A DNA stretch of 64,000 nucleotides from Desulfovibrio sp. G11 (lineage in GTDB: Bacteria; Desulfobacterota; Desulfovibrionia; Desulfovibrionales; Desulfovibrionaceae), in assembly GCF_900243745.1 (NCBI RefSeq), contig NZ_LT984798.1:1854501-1918500 (forward strand), written 5' to 3'. Made by a program: the position numbers and the translations under genes. Below, in pieces: positions 13,139 through 55,228 of this stretch. The first letter of the stretch is position 1. The number at the start of each line of letters is the position of its first letter. The notes under the pieces are model-generated. The model ran no database searches and had not been told where the DNA came from. It was given only the letters and a program-made list of their open reading frames with translations.

Positions 13139-13147
13139 GTGGTACCC

Positions 13148-17741: not shown

Positions 17742-17919
17742 GGTGATCCTTTATGGAGAAGCGTGTCGTCCCGCGGATGTCCTGCCCCGGCTGCGGCAGG
17801 GCGTGCCGGCGTTCGGGACCGTGCCGGCGTACGCCGCAGCTTCAAGGCTGCCGGGTTTTTCTGCGGAGAAGGGCATACGCCGTTACGGCGACACGCTGGC
17901 TTCAGTTGCTGGTTCAGGG

Positions 17920-38933: not shown

Positions 38934-39096
38934 CGCGCGGCCCGGCAGAAATGGGAAAAAGAGAAGAGCGCCATGCCGGAATCGCCGCTTGATGCAGCGA
39001 TGCCGGCGGCGCGGCAGTTGTTGCGATGGTCCTTTGTTGCAACCGTGCAGGCAGAGTTGTTCAGGCGTACGGTGCGCCGGAAAGCGGATGGGCGGG

Positions 39097-40503
39097 TCAG
39101 GCCGCCTTTTTTTCAAAGGGCGGCGGCGGCCGCCAGCGCCAGAAAAGGGCCAGCAGGGGAACAAGCCCGACAAGTTCTGCCACCTCGCGCGGGGCCATCT
39201 TGCCGGTGAGCCACCACAGGGCCAGGCTCACCATAATGGCCGCCAGCATAAGCAGCCATTGCCCTGCGCTCATTGGGCGGGCGGCCCACTGGAAAAAACC
39301 CACCGTCAGAATGGCGACCCACACCTTGGTGATGGTCAGAGACAGGGCAGCGCCTTCCAGCGGCATGGCCGGAATGAGCGTAAAGCAGCAGATGATGTTG
39401 AGTACAAGTCCGCTCACATAAAAGGCCAGCAGCAGCCGGTGGCGGCGCATGCCTATCATGGCATAGGCTGCCAGATTGTGCAGAAAGGCTGTAGCCAGGC
39501 ACGGGGTGAGCAGTTGCTGGGCGCGGACGGCGCTTTCATAGTTCTGCCCGTAGATGAAGGGCAAAAAACGGTCACTTTCCACACAGATAAGAAAAATTAT
39601 GGGCAGGGCTGCGGCCCAGAGTGTCCGGGCGGTCTGGCCGGCCAGCTGGCTGAAGGCTGCCCGATCTTGCTGCCAGTGCCTGGCCAGCAGGGGAAATATG
39701 ACCTTGCCCAGCAGGGCGCTGGAAACCAGAACCGACAGCCCCTCAATGGTTTCCCAGGCAACGCCGTAACCGCCCACATCGGCATTGCCGCCGTACTGTT
39801 TGAGAAAAATAACGTTGATCTTGTTGTAGAACATGGCGCAGGCGGCCATGCAGGTAAAAATAAGGCCGTGTTTCATCTGGCGTGCAAGGTCAAGCATACC
39901 GGCCTTGCCGACGCCGGTCAGGGGATTGCGCCCCAGCGCTACCAGCGCGAAGATGATGCAGAGCACGGACTCGATGGGCTTGTACAAGGCGATGACAATG
40001 GGCGGGGCGCCCATCACCACGCAGGCAATACCAAAGCCGATGCCGATGAGGGCCGACGGCACACGGATGCGCATTTCGACATCCTGCCGCCCACGGGCCT
40101 GGCACAGGGCAAAAAAGGAGTCGCTGACGCCGTCGAGGCCGAGGCCTGCAGCAATGCAGAGCACGATGAGGCGCAGTTCCGGGCTGTAGTTCTGCCAGCC
40201 TGTCACCAGCCATGTGGTGACCAGCGCCAGCACCAGCACAACAAGCTTGAGCCATGTAACCTCGCCGAGCAGCGCCCGGGGGCGGCCCTCACGCCGGGCG
40301 AAGGTGGACAGCAGAAAATCGTTAAGCCCCACATCGGCAATGGTTTTCACCAGATAGCCAAACGTGAGGGCCAACACGATCTGACCCATAATATCCGGGC
40401 TGCGGCGGGCCAGCAATATGGTAAAGGCCGTCCATGCCAGGTCGCGCGTCCATTGCGCACCCAGAATGTACCCGAGCCTGCGGGGGATGCTTTTGAGCTT
40501 CAT
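39097..40503 (-). CDS. Wzx-type polysaccharide/lipid flippase (MOP superfamily)
   Basis: A 468-residue membrane protein with 12 or more helices. The N-terminal block RRLGYILGAQWTRDLAWTAF and the segment MGQIVLALTFGYLVKTIADVGLNDF are typical of Wzx/MurJ-like flippases, which move lipid-linked glycans to the outer face of the inner membrane. It ends in a proline- and lysine-rich cytoplasmic tail. It is the last gene of a four-gene minus-strand operon, nine bases after the adaptor gene. Together with the glycosyltransferases in the divergent arm it points to export of a glycosylated product. Confidence 0.82.
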   Translation of the reverse strand: MKLKSIPRRLGYILGAQWTRDLAWTAFTILLARRSPDIMGQIVLALTFGYLVKTIADVGLNDFLLSTFARREGRPRALLGEVTWLKLVVLVLALVTTWLVTGWQNYSPELRLIVLCIAAGLGLDGVSDSFFALCQARGRQDVEMRIRVPSALIGIGFGIACVVMGAPPIVIALYKPIESVLCIIFALVALGRNPLTGVGKAGMLDLARQMKHGLIFTCMAACAMFYNKINVIFLKQYGGNADVGGYGVAWETIEGLSVLVSSALLGKVIFPLLARHWQQDRAAFSQLAGQTARTLWAAALPIIFLICVESDRFLPFIYGQNYESAVRAQQLLTPCLATAFLHNLAAYAMIGMRRHRLLLAFYVSGLVLNIICCFTLIPAMPLEGAALSLTITKVWVAILTVGFFQWAARPMSAGQWLLMLAAIMVSLALWWLTGKMAPREVAELVGLVPLLALFWRWRPPPPFEKKAA

Positions 40504-40512
40504 GCCTCGGCT

Positions 40513-41457
40513 TTACCTGCCGCCCCCGAAACGCACAACGGCCTTGAAGCCGGGCTTGAGTTCCAGATCAGGGTTGGGAACAGTGATCTCCACCGTGTAA
40601 TAGGACGGATTTGAGACACTCATATCATTGGAAACCCAGGATATTTCATTGACCTTGCCTGGAAATACCTTGTTGCCGAGCGAGGGAATCTCCACGTCTA
40701 CCTTATCCCCTTCCGAAATGCCGCTGATTTCGGCCTCGTACACAGGCACCTGAATCAGCACGGGGTCAAGCTGTCCTACCCTGATGGGCATGCTCCCTGC
40801 CTGCAGCAGGGTGCCGGGATTGAGGGTGGCGTCAAGCGAGAGCACATAACCCTTGATGGGGGAGGTCAGGGTGAGGGTTTCAGGCAGGATTTCGCCCTCC
40901 CTGATTTCCTGACCAAAATAGCTGCTCAGTTCCTTGAGGCGAATGGCAAAGCTGTTCTCAGCTTTTTTGATGGTAGTGGTGGTGAGTTCGATACGGCGCT
41001 GCAAAGAGGTTACGTCTTCTTCAAGGCGGCCGGAAGCCTGACGGGAGCCAAGGCCCGAGGCGGCAAGCTGACGCGCCTTGTTGCGCTGGGCGATGGTTTC
41101 GGCCAGTTTGCGTTCAAGGTCAAGCACCTGGCTCTTGAGGCTTTCTGTGCCGGGCCCCTGCATAACTTCGCGCTGCAAGGCGCGTTCGGCGTCTTCGTGC
41201 AGGTGATAGCGCATGAGCGGGGCATTTTCTTCAACGGCTTCGCCGGGTTTGACAAGCACATCATCCACCACCCCGTTAAAGGGCATGGGTATGGCGCGCA
41301 TAACAGTAGTCACCACTTTGCCGGTAAGGATGGTCACGCCGCTTTTGCCGCCTTCGGCCGCGGAGGCAGCGGCAGCGAATGCCAGGCTGCACAGCAGGAC
41401 CAGTGTCAGAAACAGGCCGGGCGCGGCGAAAAAGCGTAGACGGGCAAGGCGTTGCAT
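40513..41457 (-). CDS. Membrane-fusion (HlyD/RND-type) periplasmic adaptor
   Basis: A 314-residue protein with an N-terminal signal or anchor (FLTLVLLCSLAFAAAASAA). A barrel-sandwich lipoyl-like half (VMRAIPMPFNGVVDDVLVKP) is followed by a helical hairpin of about 85 residues (KSQVLDLERKLAETIAQRNK and onward), the second sandwich half (ESLTLTSPIKGYVLSLDATL with minor variation), and a beta-barrel (VLIQVPVYEAEISGISEGD). Such adaptors join an inner-membrane pump to TolC. Its ATG overlaps the stop codon of the TolC-family gene (TAATG), so the two are coupled. No ABC or RND pump gene is in the operon. Confidence 0.88.
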   Translation of the reverse strand: MQRLARLRFFAAPGLFLTLVLLCSLAFAAAASAAEGGKSGVTILTGKVVTTVMRAIPMPFNGVVDDVLVKPGEAVEENAPLMRYHLHEDAERALQREVMQGPGTESLKSQVLDLERKLAETIAQRNKARQLAASGLGSRQASGRLEEDVTSLQRRIELTTTTIKKAENSFAIRLKELSSYFGQEIREGEILPETLTLTSPIKGYVLSLDATLNPGTLLQAGSMPIRVGQLDPVLIQVPVYEAEISGISEGDKVDVEIPSLGNKVFPGKVNEISWVSNDMSVSNPSYYTVEITVPNPDLELKPGFKAVVRFGGGR

Positions 41458-42923
41458 TACAGCACCTCTTTGGCGGGCAGGCCGAGGAAATGTTCCTGAA
41501 GGGCCGTGGAAAGATACATCCATTCAAGCTGGGCCAGCTCGCAGGACAGCTCGGCGCGGATAAGGGCCACCTGGGCCTGCACCATGGCTTCCTGCCTGTC
41601 GGCCACGGCGGGCAGTTCGGCGATGCCTTCGTTGAAAGAAATATGGGCTTCCTTGAACTGCATGGCCGCTGTGTCAAAGCGCGTACGTGCCAGCTTGAGT
41701 TCGGTTTCGGCCAGGGCCACGCTCTGTTCGGCCTGCAGCCACCGGTTGGAATAGTCGGTGCGCTTGCGTGCCATTTCGTGGAATGCCTGCGCCTTCTGCA
41801 TGCGGGCAGTCTGCACACCGCGGTAACGGCGCCCCCAGTCCAGCAGGGGGAAGCTGAAGTTCAGGTGCAGGAAGGTATCCTCACTGCCGCTGGCCGGCTG
41901 ATACTGACCGGCGGGCGGGTTTTTGTCGATGGCGATGCTCATGTCGGGAATATACTGTGCCCAGGCAACCATGATGTTATAGTCACCGAGCTTGATCTGG
42001 CCGCGCAGCAGCAGGTCGTCTTCGGTAGTGGTCCAGCGTTCATCCCATTTGAGTTTGCGCCCGTTGAAACCGCGCAGGATTTCTTCGGCGCTGGAGGTGT
42101 CCACATCCAGACGCTGCTGGGGGTCCACGCCCGCAAGGATCTTGAGCTGGGTAAGCTGCATGGTTTCTTTCATCTTGGTCTGCTCCAGCATAAGCTCAAG
42201 CTCGCGCTGGTGCTGCATTGCCAGATTGAGGGAAACCCCCTGGCGGCCGTCAACGGCTTCCACCTGCTGCCAGTAGGAAACCAGTTCCTTGCCGATGGGC
42301 AGCAGATCTTTCTGTGCTTTGACGATTTTTTTCTGCGCCTGCAGCTGCAGGTAGGCCTGACCGATCTTGTAGATAGCCTCGCCCACGGCCTTGCGGTGGG
42401 TGGAGATGGCCAGATTGACCATGGCCTTTTGCACCTGATGTTCAAAATAGGCGGCCACAGGATTGGGAAAGGCAGCGTGAAAGCCCACGGTAAACTTGGC
42501 GCGCCCGTAGTCGCCGGGGGTGTCCTTGTGGTCCATGTTGTAGCGCGTGAGGTTGTTGGTAACCTGCATGGTCATGCGTGGTTCGGGCAGGTATTTCCAC
42601 ACGGCGTCGGTAAGGGCAACACGCTTGATTTCCAGATCCACCGCGCTGTTGACCAGAAGCGGCGACTGCTGGATGGTAAGAAAGACGCAGTCCTCAAAGG
42701 TGAAGACCTTGGCGGGATCATAAAGGTTGGGAACCGCAGCCTCGAGCTTGGCCTTGTTTTCCACCGGCACCCCGGGAGCCTCTTCCAGCCAGTGCCTGGC
42801 GGGGAGTTCCGGCGACTTGAGTCCGGCCTTGTTGGAGGCGCAGGCAGAGAAAAGAAGGGTCAGAACGAGCAGCAGCGGAAGATAAGTCCGCGCTGGAAGG
42901 AAAGTACGTGCGTTATGCGGCAT
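41457..42923 (-). CDS. TolC-family outer-membrane efflux lipoprotein
   Basis: A 488-residue protein with a lipobox signal (LLVLTLLFSAC, Cys28). Two repeats of long amphipathic helices follow, separated by beta segments, as in the TolC/OEP trimeric channel: first repeat about residues 75-260 (VFTFEDCVFLTIQQSPLLV, then KAVGEAIYKIGQAYLQLQAQ), second about 300-485 (LHLNFSFPLLDWGRRYRGV, then WLQAEQSVALAETELKLARTR). It would form the outer-membrane exit duct. It lies 68 bases after the PKS-like gene and overlaps the adaptor start by one base. Confidence 0.9.
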   Translation of the reverse strand: MPHNARTFLPARTYLPLLLVLTLLFSACASNKAGLKSPELPARHWLEEAPGVPVENKAKLEAAVPNLYDPAKVFTFEDCVFLTIQQSPLLVNSAVDLEIKRVALTDAVWKYLPEPRMTMQVTNNLTRYNMDHKDTPGDYGRAKFTVGFHAAFPNPVAAYFEHQVQKAMVNLAISTHRKAVGEAIYKIGQAYLQLQAQKKIVKAQKDLLPIGKELVSYWQQVEAVDGRQGVSLNLAMQHQRELELMLEQTKMKETMQLTQLKILAGVDPQQRLDVDTSSAEEILRGFNGRKLKWDERWTTTEDDLLLRGQIKLGDYNIMVAWAQYIPDMSIAIDKNPPAGQYQPASGSEDTFLHLNFSFPLLDWGRRYRGVQTARMQKAQAFHEMARKRTDYSNRWLQAEQSVALAETELKLARTRFDTAAMQFKEAHISFNEGIAELPAVADRQEAMVQAQVALIRAELSCELAQLEWMYLSTALQEHFLGLPAKEVL

Positions 42924-42991
42924 CTGGCACCCTTTACAGGCTCGCGCGCCCGGCGCGTTGGTATGGTCACGGTTGTTGCGGCGGGAACGCG

Positions 42992-45900
42992 CTAAGGCGC
43001 GGTGGGTCCGTGGTCCCGCCGGTCAAATTCCAGATGATGAAGGGTGAGAAAGACGCGGCCGCGCTCGTCAACGGCCTGGCCGTCAAAACGCAGCAGTCGG
43101 GGATCCGACCAGGAGCGGCGCAGCACCACATGCCACGGCCCTTTGCCCCTTTCGGCCCCGAATCGGATAAAACCAGCCGCGTGCAGCCGCCAGCAGCGTA
43201 CCGCATCGGCCACTGCTGTTATGCCCGCGCTGGCATGTTCAGCTTCCTGGGCTATAGACAGCCAGGCAGCCTGCACCATTCCCTCCACCACATGCAGAAC
43301 ATCAGCATAGCCTTTATTGCCCTCGGGGGCAATGGCCGCATGCGGCGGATTGAGGCGCGCCGCGTATCTGTGCTCTGGTAAAACCAAAAAATTTCGTAAC
43401 ATGCGCCAGGGCGCACCAAGGCCGGTGGCCTCATAAAAAAGTTCGGTGTCCAGACCGGGAACTGCGGCATCGCTGTTTTTTCCGGAAATTCCGGTCTCGT
43501 GCGACCACAGGGGGGGCACCTGCCCACTGCCCGCAGCCAGTAAGGTCATGCCTCCGGCTACAGGGGTGTACTGGCCGAGATGCCTGCCGTTGGCCGTGAT
43601 TTCGCGTACGGCCAGCTCGCCGCGGCACATTCGGGTCATGACGCCGTCCTGCATGAGCCAGGGTTCGGCCTCCACGGTCAGGCGGCATTCGCGTGTGATG
43701 CCGGGCGGCAACAGCGGCGGTTCATGAAAGCGCAGGTCTGAAAATCCGGTTACGGTAAGCCAGGGCAGCCACAGGCTGGAGGCTTCCAGCAGGGCCGCAA
43801 GAGCGCGGCCGGGCGGCAGCCAGGGAGTGTTTCCGTCAAGGGCATTGCCAGGCTGGCCGCCATGCAGGGCCAGATCAGTGTCGGCAAAGCGGGAGTAATG
43901 GCAGCCGCCCTGAAACAGTGTGGCCGTGCCGCGGTATGGCGGGTGCGGATCGGGAAAAACCAGGGGGTAGAAGCGTGGCCGCTCGACCATGGCCAGACTG
44001 GTGCTCGCAGAGGGATGCTCCCCCCGGCGGCCGGGTTCATCGCTGCACGGCAGGGTGGTGTGCCGCGCCCAGAATACACGCTCCGTTGTGCCACGCAGCA
44101 GTTCGCGGGCCAGCAGGTCGCCCCACTCGTTAAGCCCGGCTCGCAGGCCGCGTTCAAGCAGGCGTACGGCGCGTACGGCTACTCCCGCTTCCTGTCCCAG
44201 AGTGTCAAGGCGCTTTTCCAGCGGGCCGTCGCAATACATGTTTTCCTGCGTGGGCAGAAGCAGGCTGCACAGGCAGGCATAGCGCAAGCCATGCCCCAGG
44301 GCGGAGCGCATGGCAGCTTCCAGAACCTCCGGCATGCGGGCGGCGGCGAAACCGGCATCTGAAGAGGCCGGGCCGCGGGCTGTTCCGGCCGGCTGCGCAA
44401 GGGCGGCGGGCGCGAAGATGAGGCCGTCCACGCGGCCTTCGCGGTGGGCCAGCGCGTCAAGAACCATGCGGGCTTCTTCGGCCAGGGCCAAGGCTTCTGT
44501 GGCGCTTTGCGGCAGGCGTATACGCAGGTCAAGAGGCACAAGGCGCGAGCCGGCCTTGACCAGGGGAGCGCAGGCTTCAAGCTGCTCCTTCGGCACGGCC
44601 AGCACGCAGCCCAGCGGGGCGAGCCCGCTCATGAGCGCGGGCAAAAGATCGGGTTCAAAAAAGAGCAGGGCCAGCACGTCGCCCTTGCGTATGGGCAGTC
44701 CCTGCCCGCAGGGATCCAGCGGCAGTTGGGCAGGGGCACCTTGTGCCTGACTTCCGTCATCTTCGGCCCGGGCGCTTTCTTCCGGCTGATGCCGTAGCAA
44801 GGGCGCAAAACGGCACAGGGGCGCGCAGGCGCAGGCCTGGGCTGCACGACGGGAAGGGTTTGCGCCTGTTGATGCGCGTTCCTGCCTGCCTTCGGCAAGG
44901 GGGTGACCGCCCAGAATGCGCGCCAGATCGCCTATGGTGGAAACCTTGAGCAGGTCTTCAAAATTGACAGTGATATCCAGCGCTTTTTCCACTTCCTGGA
45001 TAATGAGCGGAAAACGGCTGGAGCGCAGGGCCAGATCATAGCGCAGGTCCATTTCAGGACGCAGATCTTCCACAGGACGCCCGCTGGCGCGCGCCAGCAC
45101 GTCCATGACCACGGGCAGGGCCGCGGAGGCGGAAACGGAGGCAGCCGTTGCTTCGGTTCCTGAAAGGGGAACGGACCGGCTTTCGGGCGGCAGCGCATGT
45201 TCTGCGGATGGCGTGTCTTGCGCGCCGTGCTCCACGGGGCAGGCGGCGTCAGGAGTTCCGGCGGGCACAAGGCCGCAGTGGGGCAGCGGCATGCGCGCGG
45301 CAGCTGTGGCATCTTCGCCGTCATGCATGGCGGTGAAGCGCGCGCGGATGGCGCTTTCGCGCAGATGGCCGAGGGCGTAGAGCCGGGCGCACGTCTGCCG
45401 CATCCCTTCAATTTCTTTGCCCTTGCGTCCGGCCGACAGGCAGAGGGCCCGGGCTTCATTGTCTCGGGCAAGGCCGCAAAGGGTATCCTGAGGACCCAGC
45501 TCCACAAAATGGCGGATACCGTCCCTGCCCCACATGGCATGCACACACTCGGTCCAGCGAACGGAATTTTCGTCCAGGTCGGTGATGTGGCGGCAGATGG
45601 AAGGCTGGTCATCCGGGTAGAAGCCGGTGGTGATGCAGCTCAGCATGGGACTGATGGGAGCGTGCATCTCAAGGGCATTGAGGCGGCGCAGCGAAAGATC
45701 GCGCAGTACGCGCATGCTCGGATGATGGAATGCCAGGCTTACGTTGAGCACAATGGCCGGTATGCGCCGCTTGCGCAGGTTCTTGCGGGCTTCCTGCAGG
45801 GCCTCGCGCGGGCCGCTGAGGATGAATTGCTGGGGCGTATTGTAATTGGATACATACAAGGTCGGCCAAGCGGCGCGGATTTCTTCCACGATTTCCGCGC

Positions 45901-47254
45901 TGGCGTGCACGGCCATCATGCCTGTCTCACGCGTGGCCGCGGCTTCCAGCTCGGCCATGTGCACTGCGCGCGTGTCCAGGATATACCAGGCCACTTCGGG
46001 CGAATAGATGCCGCTGAAGCAGAGGGCGATAAGTTCGCCCAGGCTGTGACCGCAAAAGAGCGAGGGACGCAGGCCCAAGGAGGAAAGTACGCTCCACTGC
46101 GCAAATTCGAGCATGAAAAGGTAGGGTGACTGCCAGCGGGTGAGGCTGATCTTTTCCACATTCTTTTCATCCATAAGGCCAAGCACGTCCCAGTCCGCCA
46201 CGGCGGCGATGCGGTCCATGGCCGCGCGCGCCACAGGAAAACTGTCGTACAGCTCACGGCCCATGCCCGGCCAGACCGAACCAAGCCCGCAGCACATGAC
46301 GGCCAGGGGCGGCGGCGTATGGGCAGGGGACAGCCACAGGCCGCGCGGCTCAAGGGCCGCAAGGGCGGCAGCATCGGGGTTGCGCGGCAGGGCGAGCAGC
46401 TCCTGCCGCCACAGGGGACTGGTGGCGCCTATGCGCCATACTGTGCCGTCCTGGGGAAGTTCCGCGTAGCGCACTCCGTCAAGAATGATCTCGCCTGGCG
46501 CGGCATGGGCGCCGGATGTGCCGGGCATGTCGGGCGCGGCAGACGTGTCTGTTTCGGGCTGCTGGCGGAGCGCGGGGGCGACGTGCGCCGGCGCTGTTTG
46601 CTCCGGTGTGTCGCGTGCCGTGTTTTTGCGGCACGTAAGCGTGTCGCAGCAGGGCGGGGTGATTTTGGGCAGGCGCAGCAGCAGGGGTTGGCAATGCAGC
46701 CTGTTGTCCTCATCAGCCGTGAAGTCCAGCAGAAGGATGGTAGGTACGCGACCTGTCTGGGGCCATAGGGGCTGGTCTACTCCCAGAGGGCATTGTGGCG
46801 GGGCTTCGGAGGCGCTTTCGCCAGGGGCTTCCACGGCGTCGCTTCCCTGTTCCGGCATATGGCGCAAAAGTTTTTCGGCCTCCTGCACAAGGCCGGGGGC
46901 GAAGGGGTCGCACTGCAGCCGGACCGGACCGATGCGCCAGAGGTTTTGCAGGCCTTCAAGGGCCAGCGCCAGCGGCTGGGCCAACGGGGTGGGGGTTTTC
47001 TGCTCGTTCCAGCAAAGCCAGAGCATGACAGGGCCGGAATCTTCCGCATGGGTGAGCCAGTCAAAGCACTGGCGGGCCATGGTCTGGGCGCAGGCCTGCC
47101 CTGCAAGGGCAGACTGCCGGGCAGGGCCGGAATCCTCGGAGCCGGGACGTGAAAACGTTGCGCCGGGAAGCGACACAACGAGCAGCCCGCCGGAAAGAAC
47201 GGTGCTTTGCGCTGTACGGTTTTTACCGTATTGAGGAGCAGGATCTTGCTGCAT
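42992..47254 (-). CDS. PKS-like multidomain protein: acyltransferase, carrier protein, reductase-like and dehydratase-like regions; no ketosynthase
   Basis: A 1,420-residue cytoplasmic protein. Residues 1-310 are not recognised and contain a Pro/Ala-rich part. Residues about 318-610 are a PKS acyltransferase: GLGSVWPGMGRELYDSFP, catalytic Ser404 in GHSLGELIAL, His near 510 in LAFHHPSMRVL. Residues about 710-785 resemble an acyl carrier protein, with DLRYDLALRSSRFPLIIQEV where the phosphopantetheine serine should sit (Ser745 or 746). Residues about 850-1090 look like a structural or reductase-like Rossmann half. Residues about 1110-1410 resemble a hot-dog dehydratase. No ketosynthase CHSS-type motif is present. 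The ATG at 47254 lacks a clear ribosome-binding site. It heads the operon with TolC, adaptor and flippase genes. Confidence 0.8.
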   Translation of the reverse strand: MQQDPAPQYGKNRTAQSTVLSGGLLVVSLPGATFSRPGSEDSGPARQSALAGQACAQTMARQCFDWLTHAEDSGPVMLWLCWNEQKTPTPLAQPLALALEGLQNLWRIGPVRLQCDPFAPGLVQEAEKLLRHMPEQGSDAVEAPGESASEAPPQCPLGVDQPLWPQTGRVPTILLLDFTADEDNRLHCQPLLLRLPKITPPCCDTLTCRKNTARDTPEQTAPAHVAPALRQQPETDTSAAPDMPGTSGAHAAPGEIILDGVRYAELPQDGTVWRIGATSPLWRQELLALPRNPDAAALAALEPRGLWLSPAHTPPPLAVMCCGLGSVWPGMGRELYDSFPVARAAMDRIAAVADWDVLGLMDEKNVEKISLTRWQSPYLFMLEFAQWSVLSSLGLRPSLFCGHSLGELIALCFSGIYSPEVAWYILDTRAVHMAELEAAATRETGMMAVHASAEIVEEIRAAWPTLYVSNYNTPQQFILSGPREALQEARKNLRKRRIPAIVLNVSLAFHHPSMRVLRDLSLRRLNALEMHAPISPMLSCITTGFYPDDQPSICRHITDLDENSVRWTECVHAMWGRDGIRHFVELGPQDTLCGLARDNEARALCLSAGRKGKEIEGMRQTCARLYALGHLRESAIRARFTAMHDGEDATAAARMPLPHCGLVPAGTPDAACPVEHGAQDTPSAEHALPPESRSVPLSGTEATAASVSASAALPVVMDVLARASGRPVEDLRPEMDLRYDLALRSSRFPLIIQEVEKALDITVNFEDLLKVSTIGDLARILGGHPLAEGRQERASTGANPSRRAAQACACAPLCRFAPLLRHQPEESARAEDDGSQAQGAPAQLPLDPCGQGLPIRKGDVLALLFFEPDLLPALMSGLAPLGCVLAVPKEQLEACAPLVKAGSRLVPLDLRIRLPQSATEALALAEEARMVLDALAHREGRVDGLIFAPAALAQPAGTARGPASSDAGFAAARMPEVLEAAMRSALGHGLRYACLCSLLLPTQENMYCDGPLEKRLDTLGQEAGVAVRAVRLLERGLRAGLNEWGDLLARELLRGTTERVFWARHTTLPCSDEPGRRGEHPSASTSLAMVERPRFYPLVFPDPHPPYRGTATLFQGGCHYSRFADTDLALHGGQPGNALDGNTPWLPPGRALAALLEASSLWLPWLTVTGFSDLRFHEPPLLPPGITRECRLTVEAEPWLMQDGVMTRMCRGELAVREITANGRHLGQYTPVAGGMTLLAAGSGQVPPLWSHETGISGKNSDAAVPGLDTELFYEATGLGAPWRMLRNFLVLPEHRYAARLNPPHAAIAPEGNKGYADVLHVVEGMVQAAWLSIAQEAEHASAGITAVADAVRCWRLHAAGFIRFGAERGKGPWHVVLRRSWSDPRLLRFDGQAVDERGRVFLTLHHLEFDRRDHGPTAP

Positions 47255-47584
47255 AAAGTTTCAAGCCTGTGGAGCGCGGTTGGTCAAAAGGGGCCGAACC
47301 GTGATCTCAGATCGGCTAAGGGCGTTATGTTAGGTTATATCGCAGTGCTTGTCCAGAAGAGCAGCGGTAAATATGCGCCGGAAATGCGCGCGGCAAACCG
47401 GCCGCAGTGCCCTGAAGTCTTGCAGGAAGCCGGTTTTGCGGTCTGCTGTGTATTTGTCATTCCGCACTTGCCATAGTTTCGCGCTTTGGCTATACTAAAT
47501 CCTTACAAAGTTGCGCTCTGTGCCCGGCGGCTCGCCGCAGGGTGCGGATAGGCGCGTTTTTTGGACAAATTAAGAGGACAAGGC
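47255..47584. other. Divergent promoter region of the PKS/oxoamine-synthase locus
   Basis: About 330 bases. It carries a good promoter towards the oxoamine synthase (listed), a weak TTGACC towards the PKS gene on the minus strand near 47282-47287, and the short palindrome GATCT-C-AGATC at 47303-47313. No gene. Confidence 0.5.
47468..47496 (+). promoter_or_regulatory. Sigma-70-type promoter for the oxoamine synthase operon
   Basis: TTGCCA and TATACT are separated by 17 bases, about 90 bases before the oxoamine-synthase start. Confidence 0.65.
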
Positions 47585-48907
47585 ATGAAGAAAGACCATT
47601 CCTGTCAGGCCGGAAAAGAGGCGGCATCAACAACCGCTGCCGCTACTGAAAGCTCCGCCGGCGGTTTCAGCCGCATGCGTTCCAAGCTCGCCTTTGACCG
47701 GCTTGTGGAGATGGGAGCCAAGATGGGGATGGAGAATCCTCTTTTTCTTTGCCACGAGCGCGCGGCCAAGGCCACAACGCTCATTGAAGGCAAGGAATAT
47801 CTGAACTTTTCCACCTACGATTATCTGGATATCAACGCCCATCCGGAAATAACCGAGGTCGTCACCGAGGCCGCCGCCGTGTACGGCACTTCTGCCGGAG
47901 CCAGCCGTCTTGTGGGTGGCGAGCGCCCGCCCCACCGTGCGCTGGAGCGCGCCTTCGCTGACCTGTACGGCGTGGAAGACAGTATCGTATACGTGAGCGG
48001 CCACGCCACCAACGTATCCACTCTGGGTTTTCTGCTTGGCCACCGCGACGCCATCTTTCACGACGGTCTGGCCCACAATTCGCTGATTCAGGGCGCACGC
48101 CTGTCCCATGCGGCGCGCTACTCGTATAATCACAACGACTGCGATGCCCTTGAGGAGATTCTCAAGGCCAAGCGCGCAGAGCATAAACGGGCCATTATCG
48201 TTACCGAAGGCCTGTTCAGCATGGACGGCAACATTCCCGACCTGCCCCGCATCATTCAGCTGAAAAAGCAGTACGACTGCATGCTGCTGGTGGACGAGGC
48301 GCACTCGCTGGGCGTGCTGGGCGCAACCGGGCGCGGCGCTCACGAGCACTTCGGCATTGACGCCAACGAAGTGGACATGTGGATGAGCACGCTCTCCAAG
48401 TCCATGTGCGGGTGCGGCGGTTTTATCGCCGGCCGGCATGAGCTGGTGGAATTTCTCAAGTATGGTTCGCCGGGCTTTGTGTTCAGCGTGGGTATGCCCC
48501 CGGTTATTGCCGTGGCCTGTCACAAGGCTCTGGACATCATGCTGCGCGAACCGGAACGGGTACACAAGCTGCAGCGGATTTCCAAGTTTTTTGTGGAGTA
48601 TGCTTCGAGCATCGGCCTTGATACGGGCGCGGCCCAGGGCTACGCCATTGTACCTGTCATGGTGGGTGACCCCATGGTGGCGGGTTTTCTGTCCAACGCC
48701 CTGTTCAAGCGCGGCATCTACGTCATGCCCATCACCTTCCCCGCCGTCAAGGAAGGCACAGACCGGCTGCGTTTCTTCCTTTCGGCCGCCCATACGGAAG
48801 AGCATATCCGCAAGGCGCTCGATGCTGTGAAAGAAGAGATTCCCAAGGCGCAGGCCATTGTTGAAAAATACAAAAACGACCACGCCGAAGAATCCCTGGG
48901 CGAATAA
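47585..48907 (+). CDS. Alpha-oxoamine synthase family PLP enzyme
   Basis: A 440-residue fold-type I enzyme of the family that includes BioF, glycine C-acetyltransferase, CqsA and serine palmitoyltransferase. These enzymes condense an amino acid with an acyl thioester, lose CO2 and give an alpha-amino ketone. Motifs: LNFSTYDYLDINAHPE, YGTSAGASRLVGGERPPHR, FHDGLAHNSLIQGARLS, DEAHSLGVLGATGRG with Asp237 and His240, and the Schiff-base Lys272 in STLSKSMCGCGG. Compared with BioF it has an N-terminal extension of about 35 residues and a longer C-terminus. GAGGAC precedes the ATG at 47585. Position opposite a ketosynthase-less PKS-like gene suggests that its acyl donor is on that carrier domain (inference). 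Confidence 0.9.
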   Translation: MKKDHSCQAGKEAASTTAAATESSAGGFSRMRSKLAFDRLVEMGAKMGMENPLFLCHERAAKATTLIEGKEYLNFSTYDYLDINAHPEITEVVTEAAAVYGTSAGASRLVGGERPPHRALERAFADLYGVEDSIVYVSGHATNVSTLGFLLGHRDAIFHDGLAHNSLIQGARLSHAARYSYNHNDCDALEEILKAKRAEHKRAIIVTEGLFSMDGNIPDLPRIIQLKKQYDCMLLVDEAHSLGVLGATGRGAHEHFGIDANEVDMWMSTLSKSMCGCGGFIAGRHELVEFLKYGSPGFVFSVGMPPVIAVACHKALDIMLREPERVHKLQRISKFFVEYASSIGLDTGAAQGYAIVPVMVGDPMVAGFLSNALFKRGIYVMPITFPAVKEGTDRLRFFLSAAHTEEHIRKALDAVKEEIPKAQAIVEKYKNDHAEESLGE

Positions 48908-48921
48908 AAAATAACACTCCG

Positions 48922-48941
48922 GCCGGGCCTTATGGCCCGGC
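48922..48941 (+). repeat. Hairpin between oxoamine synthase and first glycosyltransferase
   Basis: GCCGGGCC-TTAT-GGCCCGGC, perfect 8-base arms, in the 57-base gap. The following TCTCGTTTG is not a real T-run, so this may lower rather than stop read-through. Confidence 0.55.
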
Positions 48942-48964
48942 TCTCGTTTGCTGCGGAGACCGAC

Positions 48965-50323
48965 ATGTCTTTTACCAGTGGCGATGCCACAGAAGCGGGA
49001 GCGGAACGCGGCCGGCCGGCAGCACCTCCGGCTGTCGCCTATGTGCTTCTATGGTTCCCCTTATCCTCGGAGACCTTCATATTCCGTGAGGTTGTGCAGC
49101 TCAGGCAGCGGGGCCTTCCGGTCTATGCCTACAGTATGTACGGTGAAAACCTGAAGGGCTGCAGCGAAGAGATGCGCGATTATGACGGCCCTGTGCGGCG
49201 CATGGGTTTCAGGGCTGCGGGCAGGGTTCTGGCCGCTTTCTGGCGCGCCTTGCGACAGCGGCCGGGCAAGGTGTGGGGGCTTATGCGCGAGGGGCTTTTC
49301 CGGCGCATGCGCAACCTTGAGGCCGTGGGCGAGAATACCTGGTGTTTTCTGGCGGGTTTTCTGCTGGCCGAGCAGTGTCGCCGGGACGGCGTGCAGCTTA
49401 TTCATGCGGCCTGGGCCAACGGGCCTGCCACTGCCGCCTGGGTGGCCTCCCGTATGTCCGGTATTCCTTTTGCCTTTACGGGGCGTGCGGGTGATATCTA
49501 TCCCGAAGACGGCCTGTTGCAGGAAAAATCGCGCGATGCGCTCTTCATCCGCACCAATAACCGCACCAACGTGCAGTGGCTGCGCAGCTTTTGCCCGCCC
49601 GAAGGCGGGGACAAGGTGCACGCCATCTATAACAGCCTCACATTCCGCCCGCGCGGGCGGTGTGCCATGCCCATGCAGCCGCCGTACCGCCTGCTGGCCG
49701 TGGGGCGCTTTGCCCGTACCAAGGGCTTTCCCGAACTGCTCACGGCCATGGCCCGTCTGCGGCGTGAAAACGTGCCGGTGACCCTGACCCTTGTGGGGGA
49801 CGGCAACTGGCGGCGCAAGCTGACAAAAATGCGTGATGCGCTTGGGCTTGCCGGTTTTGTGGACATGCCCGGCTTCATCCCCCACGATAAAATCTGCGAC
49901 TTCATGCTGGATCACGACATGCTTGTCATGCCCAGCGTTGTGCATACCAACGGCGACCGCGACGGCATCCCCAATGTGATCATGGAGGCCCTTTCACACC
50001 GCATGCCGGTTATTGCCACCGATGTGTGCGGTATTTCCGAGGTGATCATTGATGGTGAGACCGGCCTGCTGGTGCAGCAGCGCGATCCGCGCGCTCTGGC
50101 CGGGGCCGTGCGCCGCATGCTTGCCGACAGGCAGGCTGCGCTGGATATGGCCGAAGCGGGCCGCGCCCTGGTGGAAAACCTTTTTGACCCCACCCGCAAC
50201 ATTACGGCCGTATACGACCTGTATGTAGCGGAATGCGCCCGCGCCGCCCGGAAACGGGACAATGGTCACGATGCAGCCGGCCGGAGCTTTGCCGTAACCG
50301 GCATGGCGGAAGAGGGCGCATGA
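48965..50323 (+). CDS. GT4-family glycosyltransferase A
   Basis: A 452-residue GT-B-fold glycosyltransferase. The N-terminal Rossmann half begins YVLLWFPLSSETFIFREV. The C-terminal nucleotide-sugar half has LLAVGRFARTKGFPELLTAM, TLTLVGDGNWRRKL and the EX7E-type segment GIPNVIMEALSHRMPVIATD. Such enzymes retain the anomeric configuration and build glycans on lipid or protein acceptors at the cytoplasmic membrane face. GGAG lies before the ATG at 48965. Its stop overlaps the next gene's start (ATGA). It is a clear relative of the second glycosyltransferase at 51579. Confidence 0.9.
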   Translation: MSFTSGDATEAGAERGRPAAPPAVAYVLLWFPLSSETFIFREVVQLRQRGLPVYAYSMYGENLKGCSEEMRDYDGPVRRMGFRAAGRVLAAFWRALRQRPGKVWGLMREGLFRRMRNLEAVGENTWCFLAGFLLAEQCRRDGVQLIHAAWANGPATAAWVASRMSGIPFAFTGRAGDIYPEDGLLQEKSRDALFIRTNNRTNVQWLRSFCPPEGGDKVHAIYNSLTFRPRGRCAMPMQPPYRLLAVGRFARTKGFPELLTAMARLRRENVPVTLTLVGDGNWRRKLTKMRDALGLAGFVDMPGFIPHDKICDFMLDHDMLVMPSVVHTNGDRDGIPNVIMEALSHRMPVIATDVCGISEVIIDGETGLLVQQRDPRALAGAVRRMLADRQAALDMAEAGRALVENLFDPTRNITAVYDLYVAECARAARKRDNGHDAAGRSFAVTGMAEEGA

Positions 50324-51345
50324 GCCGTCCGGATCTTTATCTTGCCGTCAGCCTTGATGTGGAAGAGGAAGGGCTGTTCGGCGGGCAGTACGCCCGCCGG
50401 GGCTGTTCCACTGCCAATACGGCCAGTCTGACGCGCCTTGCCCCCTTGTGCGAACGGGGGGTGCGGCCCACACTGTTCTGTGCGCACAGTGTGCTGGCCG
50501 ATGCGGCTTCCCGCAGCGCTCTGGCTCATGCCCGCGACAGGTACGGGGCGGAAATCGGCGCGCATCTGCACCACTGGAACACGCCGCCTCTGACCCTTGA
50601 CGGACCCGAGGCCGACGCCGCCCTTGCCGACAATGCCGCCAGTGTACCCGCGGCCGCAGTTCCCGGCCCTCTCATGGCTGCCAAGCTTGCAAGCCTCATG
50701 GCCGCCGGACGGGATTTTCAGGGCGCAGCGCTGACATCGTTTCGTATGGGGCGCTGGGACCTGCACCGCGCCCTCTGGCCGTTGCTGGCCGAAGCCGGTA
50801 TCCTGGTGGATGCCTCGGTGCGTCCGCTGTATTGCGGGGCCACACCGCAGGCCGGGCCGGACCATTTTAGCGCACCGCGCGATCCGTACTGGGTATCCAT
50901 GCCGGAGGGCCGGATTTTTGAAGTTCCCCTCAGCGTAACCCCGCTTTTGCCGTGCCTGCCCCGCCTGCTGGGCCGCGCTGCGCCGCGCCTGCGTCCCGGA
51001 TTCAAAAACTGGGGCGCCCTGAGTCTTTTGCCCGTCTATCATCCCTTGTGGGCCATGCAGGCCATAACCAGGCTGTTTGTGGCACGGGGCGGCCGGGTGT
51101 TGTCCCTTACGTGGCACTCTTCAGAAATGATGCCGGGCGGCGCGCCGCATCTGCCCGATGCCGCCGCTGTGGACAGGCTTATGGGCAAAATACTGGCCTG
51201 GACAGACTGGCTCATGGCCCGCTGGAACGTGCGTTGCCTGACGATGGCACAGCTGCGCGAAACCCTGGGGCCAGTTGCTCCGGACAGCAGCAGTCTGCAC
51301 CGGGCCGCAGACGGCAGTCCAAATGACTGGGCCTGCTTTTCATAA
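50320..51345 (+). CDS. Polysaccharide-deacetylase-like protein
   Basis: A 341-residue protein related to NodB-fold deacetylases. It opens with LYLAVSLDVEEEGLFGG, in which Asp and Glu lie where the catalytic acid motif sits, and has GAEIGAHLHHWNTPP, an H..H-type metal motif. Later blocks are TSFRMGRWDLHRALWPL and LSLTWHSSEMMPGG. These enzymes remove N-acetyl or O-acetyl groups from sugars. No signal peptide is present, so it would act in the cytoplasm on a precursor. The start at 50320 overlaps the preceding glycosyltransferase stop by four bases, so it is coupled to it. Confidence 0.8.
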   Translation: MSRPDLYLAVSLDVEEEGLFGGQYARRGCSTANTASLTRLAPLCERGVRPTLFCAHSVLADAASRSALAHARDRYGAEIGAHLHHWNTPPLTLDGPEADAALADNAASVPAAAVPGPLMAAKLASLMAAGRDFQGAALTSFRMGRWDLHRALWPLLAEAGILVDASVRPLYCGATPQAGPDHFSAPRDPYWVSMPEGRIFEVPLSVTPLLPCLPRLLGRAAPRLRPGFKNWGALSLLPVYHPLWAMQAITRLFVARGGRVLSLTWHSSEMMPGGAPHLPDAAAVDRLMGKILAWTDWLMARWNVRCLTMAQLRETLGPVAPDSSSLHRAADGSPNDWACFS

Positions 51346-51578
51346 ACTGTTGCGGGCAGGAAAATGTTCACGCACAGTTGCCACACAACGGAACAGCGCT
51401 GCCATGCTGTGCGTTTCAATGGCGTATTCCATTTTTCAGGTGGCTCCCGGCGGAATCAACGCCGCCTCGCGGCGCGTTGCATCATGTGCGGCCTTAGGGC
51501 ATTTTGTCTTTGAAACAAAGTGTATGCCCTGGAATACAACCTGTGGATTTGCCCCTTGCAGACGCTCAGGAGCAAGTA

Positions 51579-53000
51579 ATGACAAAAGACACGACAAGCG
51601 GAAAACCCACCTCGCCGCCATTTGCGCCCGGCCTGCCCCATGTGGCCTGTGTGCTGCTCTGGTACCCACTTTTCACCCAGCCTTTTATATTCCGTGAAGT
51701 GCAGGGCCTGCGTCAGCGCCTCCCCGTTTCGGTTTACAGCCTGTATGGTCCCAACCTGCGCCACTGTTCTACGGAAATGCGCAGTGCGGCGCGAGAAACC
51801 ATCACTATGGGTACGCGTGCGCTACCGGCCATACTGGGTGAACTGCTACGCCAGATGGTCGCACATCCCTTGCGGCTGGGGCGGCTTTTCAGGCGCACCA
51901 TGTTCCGCCGCTGGCGCTGCATTGAAACCCTGGGTGAAAATCTCTGGGCTTTTTGCGCCGGCGTCTATCTGGCTCGCCGTTTCAAGGAGGCAGGCATAGA
52001 CATGATTTATGCCCCCTGGCCGCGCGGTACAGCCACTGCCGCCTGGGTGGCCGGGAGCCTTGCCGGACTGCCCTTTGCCACCTGCGCGCGGGGCGACAAC
52101 CTTGAGCCTGCCGACCCGGACCTTGGTGACAAGCTGGAGGCTGCCTTTCTTGTGCGCGCCAACAATGCCGCCGATAAGGGGCGTATTGAGAATTTCGACA
52201 GGGGACAGGCCAAGGGCAAGGTGGAACTGGTCTATAACGGCCTGACCCTGCCGCCACCCCCCGGCAGGAGCGGATCGGCCGCTGAGGATGCGTCTGCGGC
52301 CACCCCCGTACGCGACGGTGTGCACGGTTATGCCTGCGCGATGCCGCATCTGGAAGAAGCCCGGCCTTCAGCCGTACCCGAACCCATGACGCGGCCTGTG
52401 CGTTTGCTGGCCCTGGGTCGTTTTGACGTTACCAAGGGTTTTGACGTACTGCTCCGTGCCTGCGGCATTCTGCGCCGGCAGGGGCTGGACTTCAGGCTGA
52501 CGCTGGCGGGCGGCGGCGGCAAGGCCATGGGCCTTGGCTGCATGCAGGCAGAACTGATGCGTCTGTACAAGGAGCTGAAACTGGAAGGGTATGTGACCAT
52601 GCCCGGTCTGATCTCGCATAACGAACTGCCCCGGCTTCTTGGTGAGCATGATATTTTTGCCGCTCCCTGCGTAGTGCACGCCTCGGGCCGCCGCGACGGC
52701 ATCCCCAATACGGTTATCGAGGCGCTGGCCTACGGCTTGCCCGTGGTCAGCACCACGGTCAACGCCCTGCCCGAGGTGGTACGGCACGGCAAAACAGGTC
52801 TGGCCGTGCCTCCGGGAGATGCCGAAGCCCTGGCCGAAGCCATTGCCCTGCTTGCCGGAGACACGGCCCTGGCGGCGCACCTGGCCCGCAACGGCCGGTT
52901 GCTGGCAGCCCATATGTTTGATCCTGAAGCCAACAATGATCGTTTGGCCCGCATATTTACCAATAATTACAAATGCTGGAAAGAATCATGTGTGGAATAG
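51579..53000 (+). CDS. GT4-family glycosyltransferase B
   Basis: A 473-residue GT-B-fold glycosyltransferase. Its N-terminus CVLLWYPLFTQPFIFREV and VSVYSLYGPNLRHCSTEM line up with glycosyltransferase A, showing duplication of an ancestral gene. The C-terminal half has LLALGRFDVTKGFDVLLRA, LTLAGGGGKAMGLG, and GIPNTVIEALAYGLPVVSTT. It carries an insert of about 45 residues between the two halves (residues 225-275), Ala/Pro-rich, absent from glycosyltransferase A. GGAG lies before the ATG at 51579. A 233-base gap without a gene separates it from the deacetylase gene. Its 3' end overlaps the asparagine synthase start by 13 bases. Confidence 0.9.
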   Translation: MTKDTTSGKPTSPPFAPGLPHVACVLLWYPLFTQPFIFREVQGLRQRLPVSVYSLYGPNLRHCSTEMRSAARETITMGTRALPAILGELLRQMVAHPLRLGRLFRRTMFRRWRCIETLGENLWAFCAGVYLARRFKEAGIDMIYAPWPRGTATAAWVAGSLAGLPFATCARGDNLEPADPDLGDKLEAAFLVRANNAADKGRIENFDRGQAKGKVELVYNGLTLPPPPGRSGSAAEDASAATPVRDGVHGYACAMPHLEEARPSAVPEPMTRPVRLLALGRFDVTKGFDVLLRACGILRRQGLDFRLTLAGGGGKAMGLGCMQAELMRLYKELKLEGYVTMPGLISHNELPRLLGEHDIFAAPCVVHASGRRDGIPNTVIEALAYGLPVVSTTVNALPEVVRHGKTGLAVPPGDAEALAEAIALLAGDTALAAHLARNGRLLAAHMFDPEANNDRLARIFTNNYKCWKESCVE

Positions 53001-54928
53001 CCGGTATCTGCCGATTGGACGCTTCGCCCCTTGACCCCCAGGCCCGCCACTGGGTGCAGGCCATGACCGACCGCATCGCCCACCGGGGACCGGACGGCGA
53101 AGGGCAGTGGCTGAACGGCCCGGTCTGCCTTGGGCACAGGCGGCTCTCCATTATTGACCTCGGCACGGGCGGCCAGCCCATGCACAGTGTTGATGGGCGT
53201 TATACCATCGTCTTCAATGGTGAAATATACAATTTTGCGGAACTGAAAGAAGAGCTTTCCAGCGCCGGGGCGTGCTTTCAGACCAGTTCGGATACAGAGG
53301 TCATCCTTGAGGGCTACCGCCAGTGGGGCGTGGACTGCCTTGCCCGTTTTAACGGCATGTTTGCCTTTGCCCTGTGGGATGCTGTGGAGCAGCGCCTTTT
53401 TTGCGCGCGTGATCCTTTCGGCAAGAAGCCCTTTTTTTATACGGTGCAGCAGGGCAGGCTGCATTTCGCCTCGGAGCTGACGGCCCTTGAGCAACTGCGC
53501 GGCCAGGGCGCCGGGCTGAACCTGACCCTGCGGCCCGAAGCCGTCATGCGCTATCTGGCCTATGAATATGTGCCGACCCCGCAGACGGTGTATGGTGAGG
53601 TGGAAAGCCTGCCCCCGGCGCACTGGCTTGTGCTTGAAGGCGGAAGCCTGCGCACCGGCCGTTACTGGGACATGCCCGTGCCGGACGAAAACGACCGCCG
53701 CAGCACCGATGAACTTTGCGAAGAGCTGCGGGTTCTGCTGGCCCGGGCCGTGCGCCGCCGTATGGTCAGCGATGTGCCGCTGGGCGTTTTTCTTTCGGGC
53801 GGCATTGACTCGTCCATTGTGGCAGGGCTGATGGCCCGGCAGTCGTCCTCGCCGGTAAAGACCTTTTCCATAGGCTTTACCGAGGCCAGCTACGACGAGT
53901 CCCGCTATGCCCGTATTGTTGCCGGGACCTTCGGCACGGACCACCACGAGCGCGTACTTTCGGCAGAAGAATGCGCCGACAATCTGCCCGGCATCATCAG
54001 CAAAATGGACGTACCCATGGCGGACGCTTCGGTTGCGCCCACCTGGCTGCTTTCGGGCGTGACCCGCGAAAAGGTCACTGTGGCGCTGGGGGGCGATGGC
54101 GCGGACGAACTGTGGGCCGGGTATGAGCACTATATCGGCTTTAAGGTGGCGGAGTGGTATAACGCTTTGCCCGCCGTGCTGCGGCGCAAGGTTGTGGAGC
54201 CTCTGGCCCGCCGCCTGCCGTCGTCCGCCGGATATATCAATCCGCGCCTTGCGGTAGCCACGTTTTTGCGCGCCGCGCAGGCTCCGGCCTGGCAGCGGGT
54301 GCAGACCATGCTGACGGCCTTTACGCCCGACATGCAGGCGGAGATATTGTCCGGCTCCTTCAGGGCGCAGGCTCCGGAATTTCTTGCGCCGGAACGCCTG
54401 TTTGCGCCCACGCGTGAACAGTATGAGCACTGGCCCCATAACACGGCCGCGCCGCTGGCGAGAGCCTTTCATGTGTACGTGCGCCAGTTCATGCTGGATG
54501 ACATTCTGGTCAAGGTAGACCGTTGCTCCATGCTGCACAGCCTTGAGGTGCGCGCACCGTTTCTGGACAGGGATGTGGCCGAATTCGCCGCCCGTCTGCC
54601 TGTGGACCGCAAACTGCACGGCTTCAAGCGCAAGTGGCTGCTCAAGCGGGCGTTTGCCGACCTGTTGCCCAGAGAGATACTGTATCGCAACAAGCGGGGT
54701 TTTCAGATTCCCGTTGCTGAATGGCTGCGCGGACGCATGCGGCCGCTTGTGGAAGACCTGCTCAGCGCAGACAGCCTCAGGGCGCAGGGTATTTTTGACC
54801 CTGCCGCCGTGCGCGCCCTTGTGGACGAACATGTTTCGGGCAGGGCGGACCTGCGCAAGCCGCTCTGGACCCTGCTGGTCTTCCAGCTCTGGTGGCAGGC
54901 GCACAACGGAAGCGGAACAGGTATATAG
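52988..54928 (+). CDS. asnB: Asparagine synthase (glutamine-hydrolysing), class II amidotransferase
   Basis: A 646-residue enzyme. After removal of Met the protein begins with Cys (MCGIAGICRLD), the N-terminal nucleophile that releases ammonia from glutamine. Further glutaminase motifs are RGPDGEGQW, HRRLSIIDL and FNGEIYNF. The synthetase half has the ATP pyrophosphatase loop FLSGGIDSSIVAG near residue 265, and GDGADELWAGYEHY. In surface-glycan loci such proteins usually amidate a sugar carboxylate or another acid rather than making free asparagine. The overlap with glycosyltransferase B and the GGAAAG ribosome-binding sequence inside that gene support coupling. A terminator lies about 85 bases downstream. 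Confidence 0.9.
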   Translation: MCGIAGICRLDASPLDPQARHWVQAMTDRIAHRGPDGEGQWLNGPVCLGHRRLSIIDLGTGGQPMHSVDGRYTIVFNGEIYNFAELKEELSSAGACFQTSSDTEVILEGYRQWGVDCLARFNGMFAFALWDAVEQRLFCARDPFGKKPFFYTVQQGRLHFASELTALEQLRGQGAGLNLTLRPEAVMRYLAYEYVPTPQTVYGEVESLPPAHWLVLEGGSLRTGRYWDMPVPDENDRRSTDELCEELRVLLARAVRRRMVSDVPLGVFLSGGIDSSIVAGLMARQSSSPVKTFSIGFTEASYDESRYARIVAGTFGTDHHERVLSAEECADNLPGIISKMDVPMADASVAPTWLLSGVTREKVTVALGGDGADELWAGYEHYIGFKVAEWYNALPAVLRRKVVEPLARRLPSSAGYINPRLAVATFLRAAQAPAWQRVQTMLTAFTPDMQAEILSGSFRAQAPEFLAPERLFAPTREQYEHWPHNTAAPLARAFHVYVRQFMLDDILVKVDRCSMLHSLEVRAPFLDRDVAEFAARLPVDRKLHGFKRKWLLKRAFADLLPREILYRNKRGFQIPVAEWLRGRMRPLVEDLLSADSLRAQGIFDPAAVRALVDEHVSGRADLRKPLWTLLVFQLWWQAHNGSGTGI

Positions 54929-55228
54929 ACAGCCGCCATTGGAAATGCTTTCATCATCGTTGTCGGGCCGCCTGCCCGGCGGCAATAGAAGGGCTGTCGG
55001 GGAGTGCCCCCGCCGGGGCCGCGCGGCGTTTTTTATTTCCGCGGTATCCGGTTGCTTGGCAGTTGCGCGGTCAGTGCGGTCCCTGCTGCCTTTTTCGTGG
55101 TGCCTCTTCTTGCCAGCCGTGCCCCGATGCTTATATGCTGTCAGGGCGTTTCAGTGCGCGGCATGAGGATTTTCCGGCAATACACCGTGAAACGCGTTTG
55201 TATAATTTCCGCAAGGTGAGGAGTTTGC
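54929..55228. other. Region between asnB and htpX
   Basis: About 300 bases without a gene. It contains hairpins GCCGCC/GGCGGC (54967-54983) and the terminator at 55011-55038. No clear promoter for htpX was found. Confidence 0.45.
55011..55038 (+). terminator. Intrinsic terminator after the asnB operon
   Basis: CGCCG-GGGCCGCG-CGGCG followed by TTTTTTATTT. The stem is short but GC-only and the T-run is strong. Confidence 0.75.

Follow-up and report, generated by a model that had tools for sequence, protein, structure and literature searches.

A ketosynthase-less, PfaA-like acyltransferase-carrier protein and a divergent alpha-oxoamine synthase at a genus-wide Desulfovibrio locus

Introduction

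In secondary lipid synthases of the polyunsaturated fatty acid (PUFA) type, pfaA is described as encoding ketosynthase (KS), malonyl-acyltransferase (MAT), acyl carrier protein (ACP) and ketoreductase (KR) domains in the order KS-MAT-ACPn-KR, with pfaD encoding the enoylreductase (ER) (PMC3098273). PfaB is portrayed as a pseudo-KS with an acyltransferase (AT) that moves long-chain acyl groups and is devoid of the Gln-Arg pair by which malonyl ATs are distinguished from it (PMC12895367). For PfSgaAB, a polyketide synthase (PKS) and an alpha-oxoamine synthase (AOS) with serine palmitoyltransferase (SPT) activity are reported to make sphinganines; its AOS is stated to form 3-ketodihydrosphinganines from serine and acyl-CoA, PfSgaC is the proposed ketosphinganine reductase, and bioactive sphingolipids of bacteria are presented as the recently demonstrated products of a PKS-linked AOS (PMC12134224). 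In CP-PLP2 proteins, a carrier is described as feeding an AOS (PMC3870968). Here we analysed a 64,000-nucleotide stretch of Desulfovibrio sp. G11 (NZ_LT984798.1, positions 1,854,501 to 1,918,500; hereafter the window, whose numbering is used in Table 1), in which the gene of a PKS-like protein without KS stands divergently to an AOS gene. In full-text searches of the literature on Desulfovibrio, none of the matches listed described this locus in its title or the opening of its abstract.

Results and discussion

Our reading of the whole, to which we assign a probability of roughly 0.45, is that of a reduced, PfaA-like AT-ACP protein together with an AOS in a locus for a surface amphiphile. It builds on the domains present, on homology to synthases that contain a KS, on conserved residues and gene order, and on the placement of the AOS in a tree; the direction of loss, the specificity for malonyl, the substrates of the AOS, the class of product and the acyl-accepting enzyme are what we infer within it. 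Pfam analysis of the PKS-like protein gave no KS family up to E 1, in agreement with a sequence-only reading of this stretch, in which no KS motif had been noted. Its assignments of an AT with Ser404 in GHSLGE, of a true carrier at residues ~710-785 (PP-binding at 716-780; S745 in 31 of 31 aligned sequences) and of the divergent neighbour as an AOS were borne out as well (Table 1). Pfam detected one PP-binding stretch and no tandem carriers; its presumed phosphopantetheine serine, S745, is found in LRSSRFP, and the domain shows helices in the AF2 model. Of the features of an iterative type I PKS, the AT Ser-His dyad and the carrier serine are present, and a KS and an intact KR are missing.

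The likely origin of this protein became apparent from five KS-containing homologues of 2,431-2,616 aa in the genera g36, g38 and g49, detected in a family-wide search of 288 genomes (PKS-like match threshold E 1e-40). By Pfam all five are ER(NMO)-KS-AT-ACP-KR-PS-DH proteins (DH, dehydratase) with one to three carrier motifs, and their layout is that of a PfaD-PfaA fusion. Profile-profile alignment (hhalign) of 31 KS-less against the five long sequences led to a single collinear match over 1,071 columns (probability 100, E 6.1e-98, 23% identity), in which residues 292-1413 of the window protein pair with residues 1193-2612 in the synthase of L164. Because the alignment is collinear, the KS-less protein can be equated with the C-terminal half of the long synthases. 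Most likely, the ER-KS half was lost in the Desulfovibrio lineage from an ancestral PfaA-like ER-KS-AT-ACPn-KR-DH synthase; that the direction was loss rather than gain is what we infer, backed by the degenerate KR and DH. The TIGR02813 score of the window protein was 95.1 bits (cut-off 1010.1), and the long relatives, with 431 and 359 bits, likewise stay below the 1010 cut-off. A KS remnant at residues 1-300 was rejected (hhalign probability 0.1); the N-terminal extension (residues 1-254) has a mean occupancy of 0.20 among orthologues. The genomic setting is partly shared with the long synthases as well, since GT1- and AsnB-like genes are located close to these in L164, L166 and L168 and a Wzx-like gene in L164. 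In the KS-containing sister locus L165, a 372-374-aa protein (4699-5823) is encoded close to a gene of phosphopantetheinyl-transferase size, on which Pfam ACPS was found for L165 only; similar frames to the 372-374-aa protein occur at L166 4121-5239 and L168 15161-16282. The L165 copy gave no Pfam match, and the protein is, by eye, possibly an N-acyltransferase.

Residue conservation was followed in a 31-row alignment consisting of the window protein, L169, L170 and 28 loci out of 34 from the genus; the truncated L068 was left out, and L046, L049, L050, L051 and L056 are absent from it although the gene is present there. S404, H510, R429, H403, N470, N472 and Q476 of the AT were, like the carrier serine, invariant (31/31), and Q375 was kept in 29. 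A second check covered 56 frames from a scan of contigs, whose genomes partly repeat the first set, so that the two sets are not independent. It gave S404 in 55/55 readable frames (one is cut), R429 and H510 in 56/56, Q375 in 52/55 and S745 in 54/56. The two without S745 are a frame truncated at the contig end and L144, where the copy looks frame-shifted and the frame breaks before the carrier. Mean identity of the orthologues to the window protein was 73% for the AT, 59% for the ACP, 37% for the KR-like region and 48% and 40% for the two DH halves. From the Gln-Arg pair Q375/R429, the AT is predicted to be malonyl-specific. As judged from these residues, the conserved feature is a malonyl-type AT-ACP and not an iterative PKS.

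The regions following the carrier had been called reductase- and dehydratase-like in the sequence-only reading, which held for their folds. The KR-like region has the fold of short-chain dehydrogenases/reductases (SDRs) (AF2 pLDDT 87.9; best Foldseek matches SDR/FabI enzymes, E 7e-8, TM only ~0.5). It was folded and searched separately because, in the VIA alignment, the C-terminal model was covered mainly in its dehydratase part. The cofactor motif is lacking: the Rossmann Gly motif was not found in this region of the window protein, is missing from 23 of the 24 KR-bearing sequences (the 24th shows a chance Gly-rich stretch), and the catalytic Tyr occurs in only 2/31 aligned sequences. Furthermore, the region is shorter than 60 residues in 11 of the 56 frames, or in 9/54 without the cut L133 and the frame-shifted L144. 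The fold of PKS dehydratases was confirmed for the DH-like region by structure comparison (Z ~24-25, rmsd 3.0-3.4, ~270 residues; 7cpx: Z 24.8, rmsd 3.2, 283 residues); the structure alignment, A2, comprised 45 of 55 loci plus the window protein. Yet the presumed His1131 is missing in 10 of the 31 sequences (kept in 21), and Glu1324 is present in 26; in the second set, 29/56 and 36/56 were counted, values that depend on the alignment. The canonical dehydratase motif has an Asp at the latter position. Since Glu also stands there in four or more of the five long KS-containing synthases, it does not by itself show that the enzyme is dead. By motif content, this leaves a pseudo-KR followed by a degenerate DH.

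The AOS probably starts at ATG 47585 and then has 440 aa; residue numbers follow the 448-aa form. It is a fold type I enzyme dependent on pyridoxal phosphate (PLP), with the Schiff-base Lys and conserved Asp/His: PLP Lys280, D245, H248, H172 and R404 are present in 50/50 AOSs of the genus clade and 13/13 others. The best PDB matches were Kbl/AONS, and the NCBIfam models BioF, Kbl and SPT scored 348, 323 and 292 bits, every one below its curated cut-off (640 for the SPT equivalog NF047600). In a tree of Desulfovibrionaceae AOSs (63 of 80 rows, identical ones merged), 50 AOSs form a single clade (100/100, stem 0.84), with five AOSs of g32, g33 and g40 as its sister, and long branches are flagged in the tree. 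Beyond the genus and g41, 22 genomes bear an AOS, and its neighbours were examined in 12 of them. A PKS of a second type adjoined in 12/12 loci (detected by tblastn in L176 and L178). Its KS part was within reach in 11 of these; the exception is L181, whose contig has no more than the final 671 residues of the AOS-adjacent PKS. The genus clade is nested among AOSs beside KS-containing PKSs and thus seems to have switched partner, and the 13 positions fixed differently in it are consistent with a changed partner or substrate. Given such a PKS-partner lineage, amino-ketone formation from a thioester by the AOS is plausible.

A second AOS of the PKS-partner kind is present in 11/37 genomes of the genus sample. 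That of the window genome, 50% identical, forms a pair with a KS-AT-DH-MT-ER-KR-ACP PKS (MT, methyltransferase) at C1:2.72-2.73 Mb. This PKS is complete and highly reducing, and the pair (L071, G000:C1:2715001-2735000, 7836-18605) lies directly upstream of capsule-type export genes, one for a Wza-like protein (Poly_export/SLBB) and one for a membrane protein of the ABC-2 type. A CRISPR-like array of 20 repeats, which share their first 28 bases at 61-62 nt spacing, is located at L071 2741-3939, with ~4 kb between it and the PKS gene.

In the genus sample, 37/37 Desulfovibrio genomes gave the PKS-like protein; G004 (63% complete) yielded no more than a fragment of it, in a frame of 211 aa. Family-wide, 85 of 288 genomes gave a match: 76 of 79 of the same genus, three of g41, one of g23 and five in g36/g38/g49, the last lying inside KS-containing proteins. 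The three genus genomes without match are 63, 67 and 89% complete, and G118, one genome without a family-wide match, has the PKS-like gene cut by a contig end (L163). An AOS orthologue (at least 67% identity) was detected in 76/79 genus genomes and 3/3 of g41 and not found in G004, G026 and G110 (63-80% complete), so that both genes occur together in 74/79 genus genomes. Outside the family, 22 of 24 genomes of the same order gave AT-domain-length matches only and two gave none. The contig scan led to 57 loci, all from Desulfovibrio/Desulfovibrionaceae or a Deltaproteobacteria MAG (metagenome-assembled genome); as it used two narrow peptide patterns, remote homologues elsewhere could escape it.

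How such a locus might work can be outlined as follows. The AT-ACP would charge its carrier domain with malonyl, or with a different acyl group, taken from CoA and would supply one acyl group to the surface amphiphile. The AOS may condense an acyl thioester derived from fatty acid synthase with an amino acid, by analogy serine, to an alpha-amino ketone long-chain base, which glycosyltransferases and AsnB would decorate and Wzx, HlyD and the outer-membrane efflux protein (OEP) would export. The product is most likely a surface, perhaps sphingoid-like, glycolipid with Wzx-HlyD-OEP export. Several observations weigh against this scheme. Among the 50 loci with at least 3 kb of upstream sequence (seven have less), 36 have the AOS next to the PKS-like gene in divergent orientation, and in the other 14 it is absent from 4.2-10.2 kb of upstream sequence; as the AOS is apart there, the two operons may serve different products. 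In G113 (67% complete), only 0.9 kb separates OEP from AOS, the PKS-like gene is cleanly absent between them and the contig contains no N, although a copy is possible within the missing third of this genome. Pfam revealed no SDR as a candidate ketosphinganine reductase among the AOS-operon genes of the window, and, with BioF and Kbl scoring above SPT, serine is not established by these profiles as the AOS substrate.

Of the rivals, the one that survives best, although we hold it to be rather unlikely, is that the AT-ACP serves the export operon only and puts malonyl or another acyl group onto a Wzx-flipped glycan or lipid, the AOS product being unrelated. Gene order was counted over the 57 loci of the contig scan: OEP and Wzx lie downstream of the PKS-like gene in 52, the other five loci end within 4.5 kb, and Wzx accompanies OEP in 52/52. 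The PKS-like gene is linked more tightly with the exporter than with the AOS, which, when apart, stays with the glycosyltransferase and AsnB genes (L187-L190). Against this stand the co-occurrence of both genes in nearly all genus genomes, their divergent arrangement in 36/50 loci and the fact that no acyl acceptor enzyme was identified.

A KS-independent two-protein system would go further than our preferred AT-ACP plus AOS reading: the AT-ACP would load a dicarboxylic acyl group, the AOS would condense that group, or a chain handed over to the carrier, with an amino acid, and the amino-ketone head would be glycosylated and exported by Wzx-HlyD-OEP as a three-part exporter with the MOP-family flippase at the inner membrane. 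We consider this doubtful and clearly unlikely; if true, it would mean a genus-wide sphingoid-like glycolipid of gut Desulfovibrio with no dedicated KS.

A KS acting in trans is one possible answer to the question of the missing domain. The genome has four PF00109 places, none within the window. None of the PF00109 places listed for the 37-genome sample overlaps a PKS-like match, so that the missing KS is no assembly accident. Across the 57 loci, no gene matched two reference KS regions (tblastn E 1e-12), so that by this search the AOS adjoins no KS-containing PKS there, as it would in an SgaAB-type locus. PF00109 was matched once or more in all 37 genomes, as expected for a split PKS module in which a housekeeping FabF-type KS elongates on the AT-ACP. 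In seven of them the match is single and falls in a FabF-sized frame (418-496 aa). For this reason a dedicated trans-KS was rejected, and the search for an always co-occurring one, proposed in the sequence-only reading, found none. With the KR a pseudo-enzyme or deleted and the DH degenerate in addition, a split module appears improbable. A separate locus, L069 (G000:C1:26001-46000), has at 2331-18726 a hybrid cluster of nonribosomal peptide synthetase (NRPS) and PKS, with proteins of 2,896 aa (KS-MT-KR-ACP-C-A-ACP-TE, no Pfam AT listed), 1,104 aa (C-A-PCP) and 1,465 aa (KS-AT-KR-ACP).

No better do we rate the chance that the AOS replaces the KS as chain-forming enzyme on the S745 carrier, as had first been suggested. 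The AOS does keep all tested catalytic residues, and its lineage is otherwise found beside PKSs. However, an AOS condenses an amino acid and not malonyl and hence cannot iterate; there is no processing cycle for it to feed, because KR and DH are degenerate or missing; it is apart in more than a quarter of the loci (14/50), and G113 keeps the AOS without a PKS-like gene at the locus. A replacement of the KS within an elongation cycle was therefore not borne out, and release of the chain from the S745 carrier as an amino ketone is possible. Finally, a decaying relic without function would fit the lost KS and ER, the degenerate KR and DH, the KR deletion in 9/54 intact frames, the absence of the gene at the locus in one genome and the apparent frame shift in L144, but is very improbable, as AT and carrier residues are invariant while the rest drifts and the gene persists down to a genome size of 1.4 Mb (G009).

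The remaining genes of the locus are given in Table 1. On the minus strand, flippase, HlyD adaptor and TolC-like porin stand in a conserved row (39097-42923) with no other pump gene between them, possibly a three-part exporter with a MOP-family component. In the AOS operon, the protein of 50320-51345 shows the motifs DVEEEGLF, GAHLHHWNTPP, FRMGRW and HSSE and gave no Pfam, NCBIfam or PDB sequence match, including a PDB profile search. The AsnB-type protein scored 592 bits with TIGR03108 (below the 817 cut-off) and 522 bits with asn_synth_AEB (above the 267 cut-off). An Rfam search of 39000-55300 gave no match.

Table 1. Features of the locus in window coordinates.
Feature	Position	Strand	Basis
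KS-less PKS-like protein, AT-ACP-pseudoKR-pseudoDH, 1,420 aa	42992..47254	-	Pfam and orthologues
N-terminal extension, residues 1-254	46493..47254	-	poorly conserved
Acyltransferase domain, residues 321-588	45491..46294	-	Pfam Acyl_transf_1, E 8.9e-32, above cut-off
Acyl carrier domain, residues 716-780	44915..45109	-	Pfam PP-binding (PF00550), E 8e-6, above cut-off
Pseudo-ketoreductase, SDR fold	44024..44734	-	AF2 and Foldseek
Dehydratase-like double hotdog, residues 1090-1415	43010..43987	-	PKS dehydratase fold in AF2 model
Alpha-oxoamine synthase (PLP, BioF/Kbl/SPT family)	47585..48907, ORF from 47561	+	Aminotran_1_2, E 6.4e-48
Outer-membrane efflux protein (OEP/TolC-like)	41457..42923	-	Pfam
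HlyD-type periplasmic adaptor	40513..41523	-	Pfam, NCBIfam
Wzx/MOP-family flippase	39097..40503	-	Pfam, NCBIfam
GT4 glycosyltransferase (EpsE-like)	48932..50323	+	Pfam, NCBIfam
Strongly conserved AOS-operon protein, polysaccharide-deacetylase-like by eye only	50320..51345	+	
Second GT4 glycosyltransferase	51504..53000	+	Pfam, NCBIfam
AsnB-type amidotransferase	52973..54928	+	NCBIfam

Conclusions

Desulfovibrio is a common gut genus, and the locus is present in Desulfovibrio piger ATCC 29098 (as L121). As a genus-core locus that combines an AOS with an AT-ACP lacking chain formation and with a set of flippase, adaptor and porin, it predicts an undescribed surface lipid, and the PKS-like protein is a clear case of a megasynthase cut down to its loading half.

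With the PfaA/PfaD synthases the protein shares the collinear AT-ACP-KR-DH half; unlike these, it has no KS, no ER, one carrier, a pseudo-KR and a degenerate DH. PfaB, as described, is similar in being an AT of a PUFA-type synthase that acts apart from chain extension, whereas the window AT keeps the Gln-Arg pair. In the AT-ACP loading didomains of modular PKSs, an AT is followed by an ACP without KS, as in the window protein; here, in contrast, pseudo-KR and DH follow, and no extending module adjoins in the 57 loci. SxtA is reportedly a carrier-AOS protein in which the carrier feeds the AOS. Compared with SxtA and with CP-PLP2 proteins as described, the carrier and AOS of the window are separate, divergently transcribed genes, and a hand-over between them would be hypothetical. 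As far as PfSgaAB is described, the likeness is one of gene layout, an AOS beside a PKS-type gene, and the same general layout recurs in the second, KS-containing PKS-AOS pair of the window genome. In the window, however, the PKS-type gene is without KS, PfaA-like and transcribed divergently instead of in line with the AOS gene; the operon showed no reductase resembling SgaC, and the setting is one of glycosylation and export. The locus is real and genus-wide, and it is a variant of the known PKS/AOS lipid systems.

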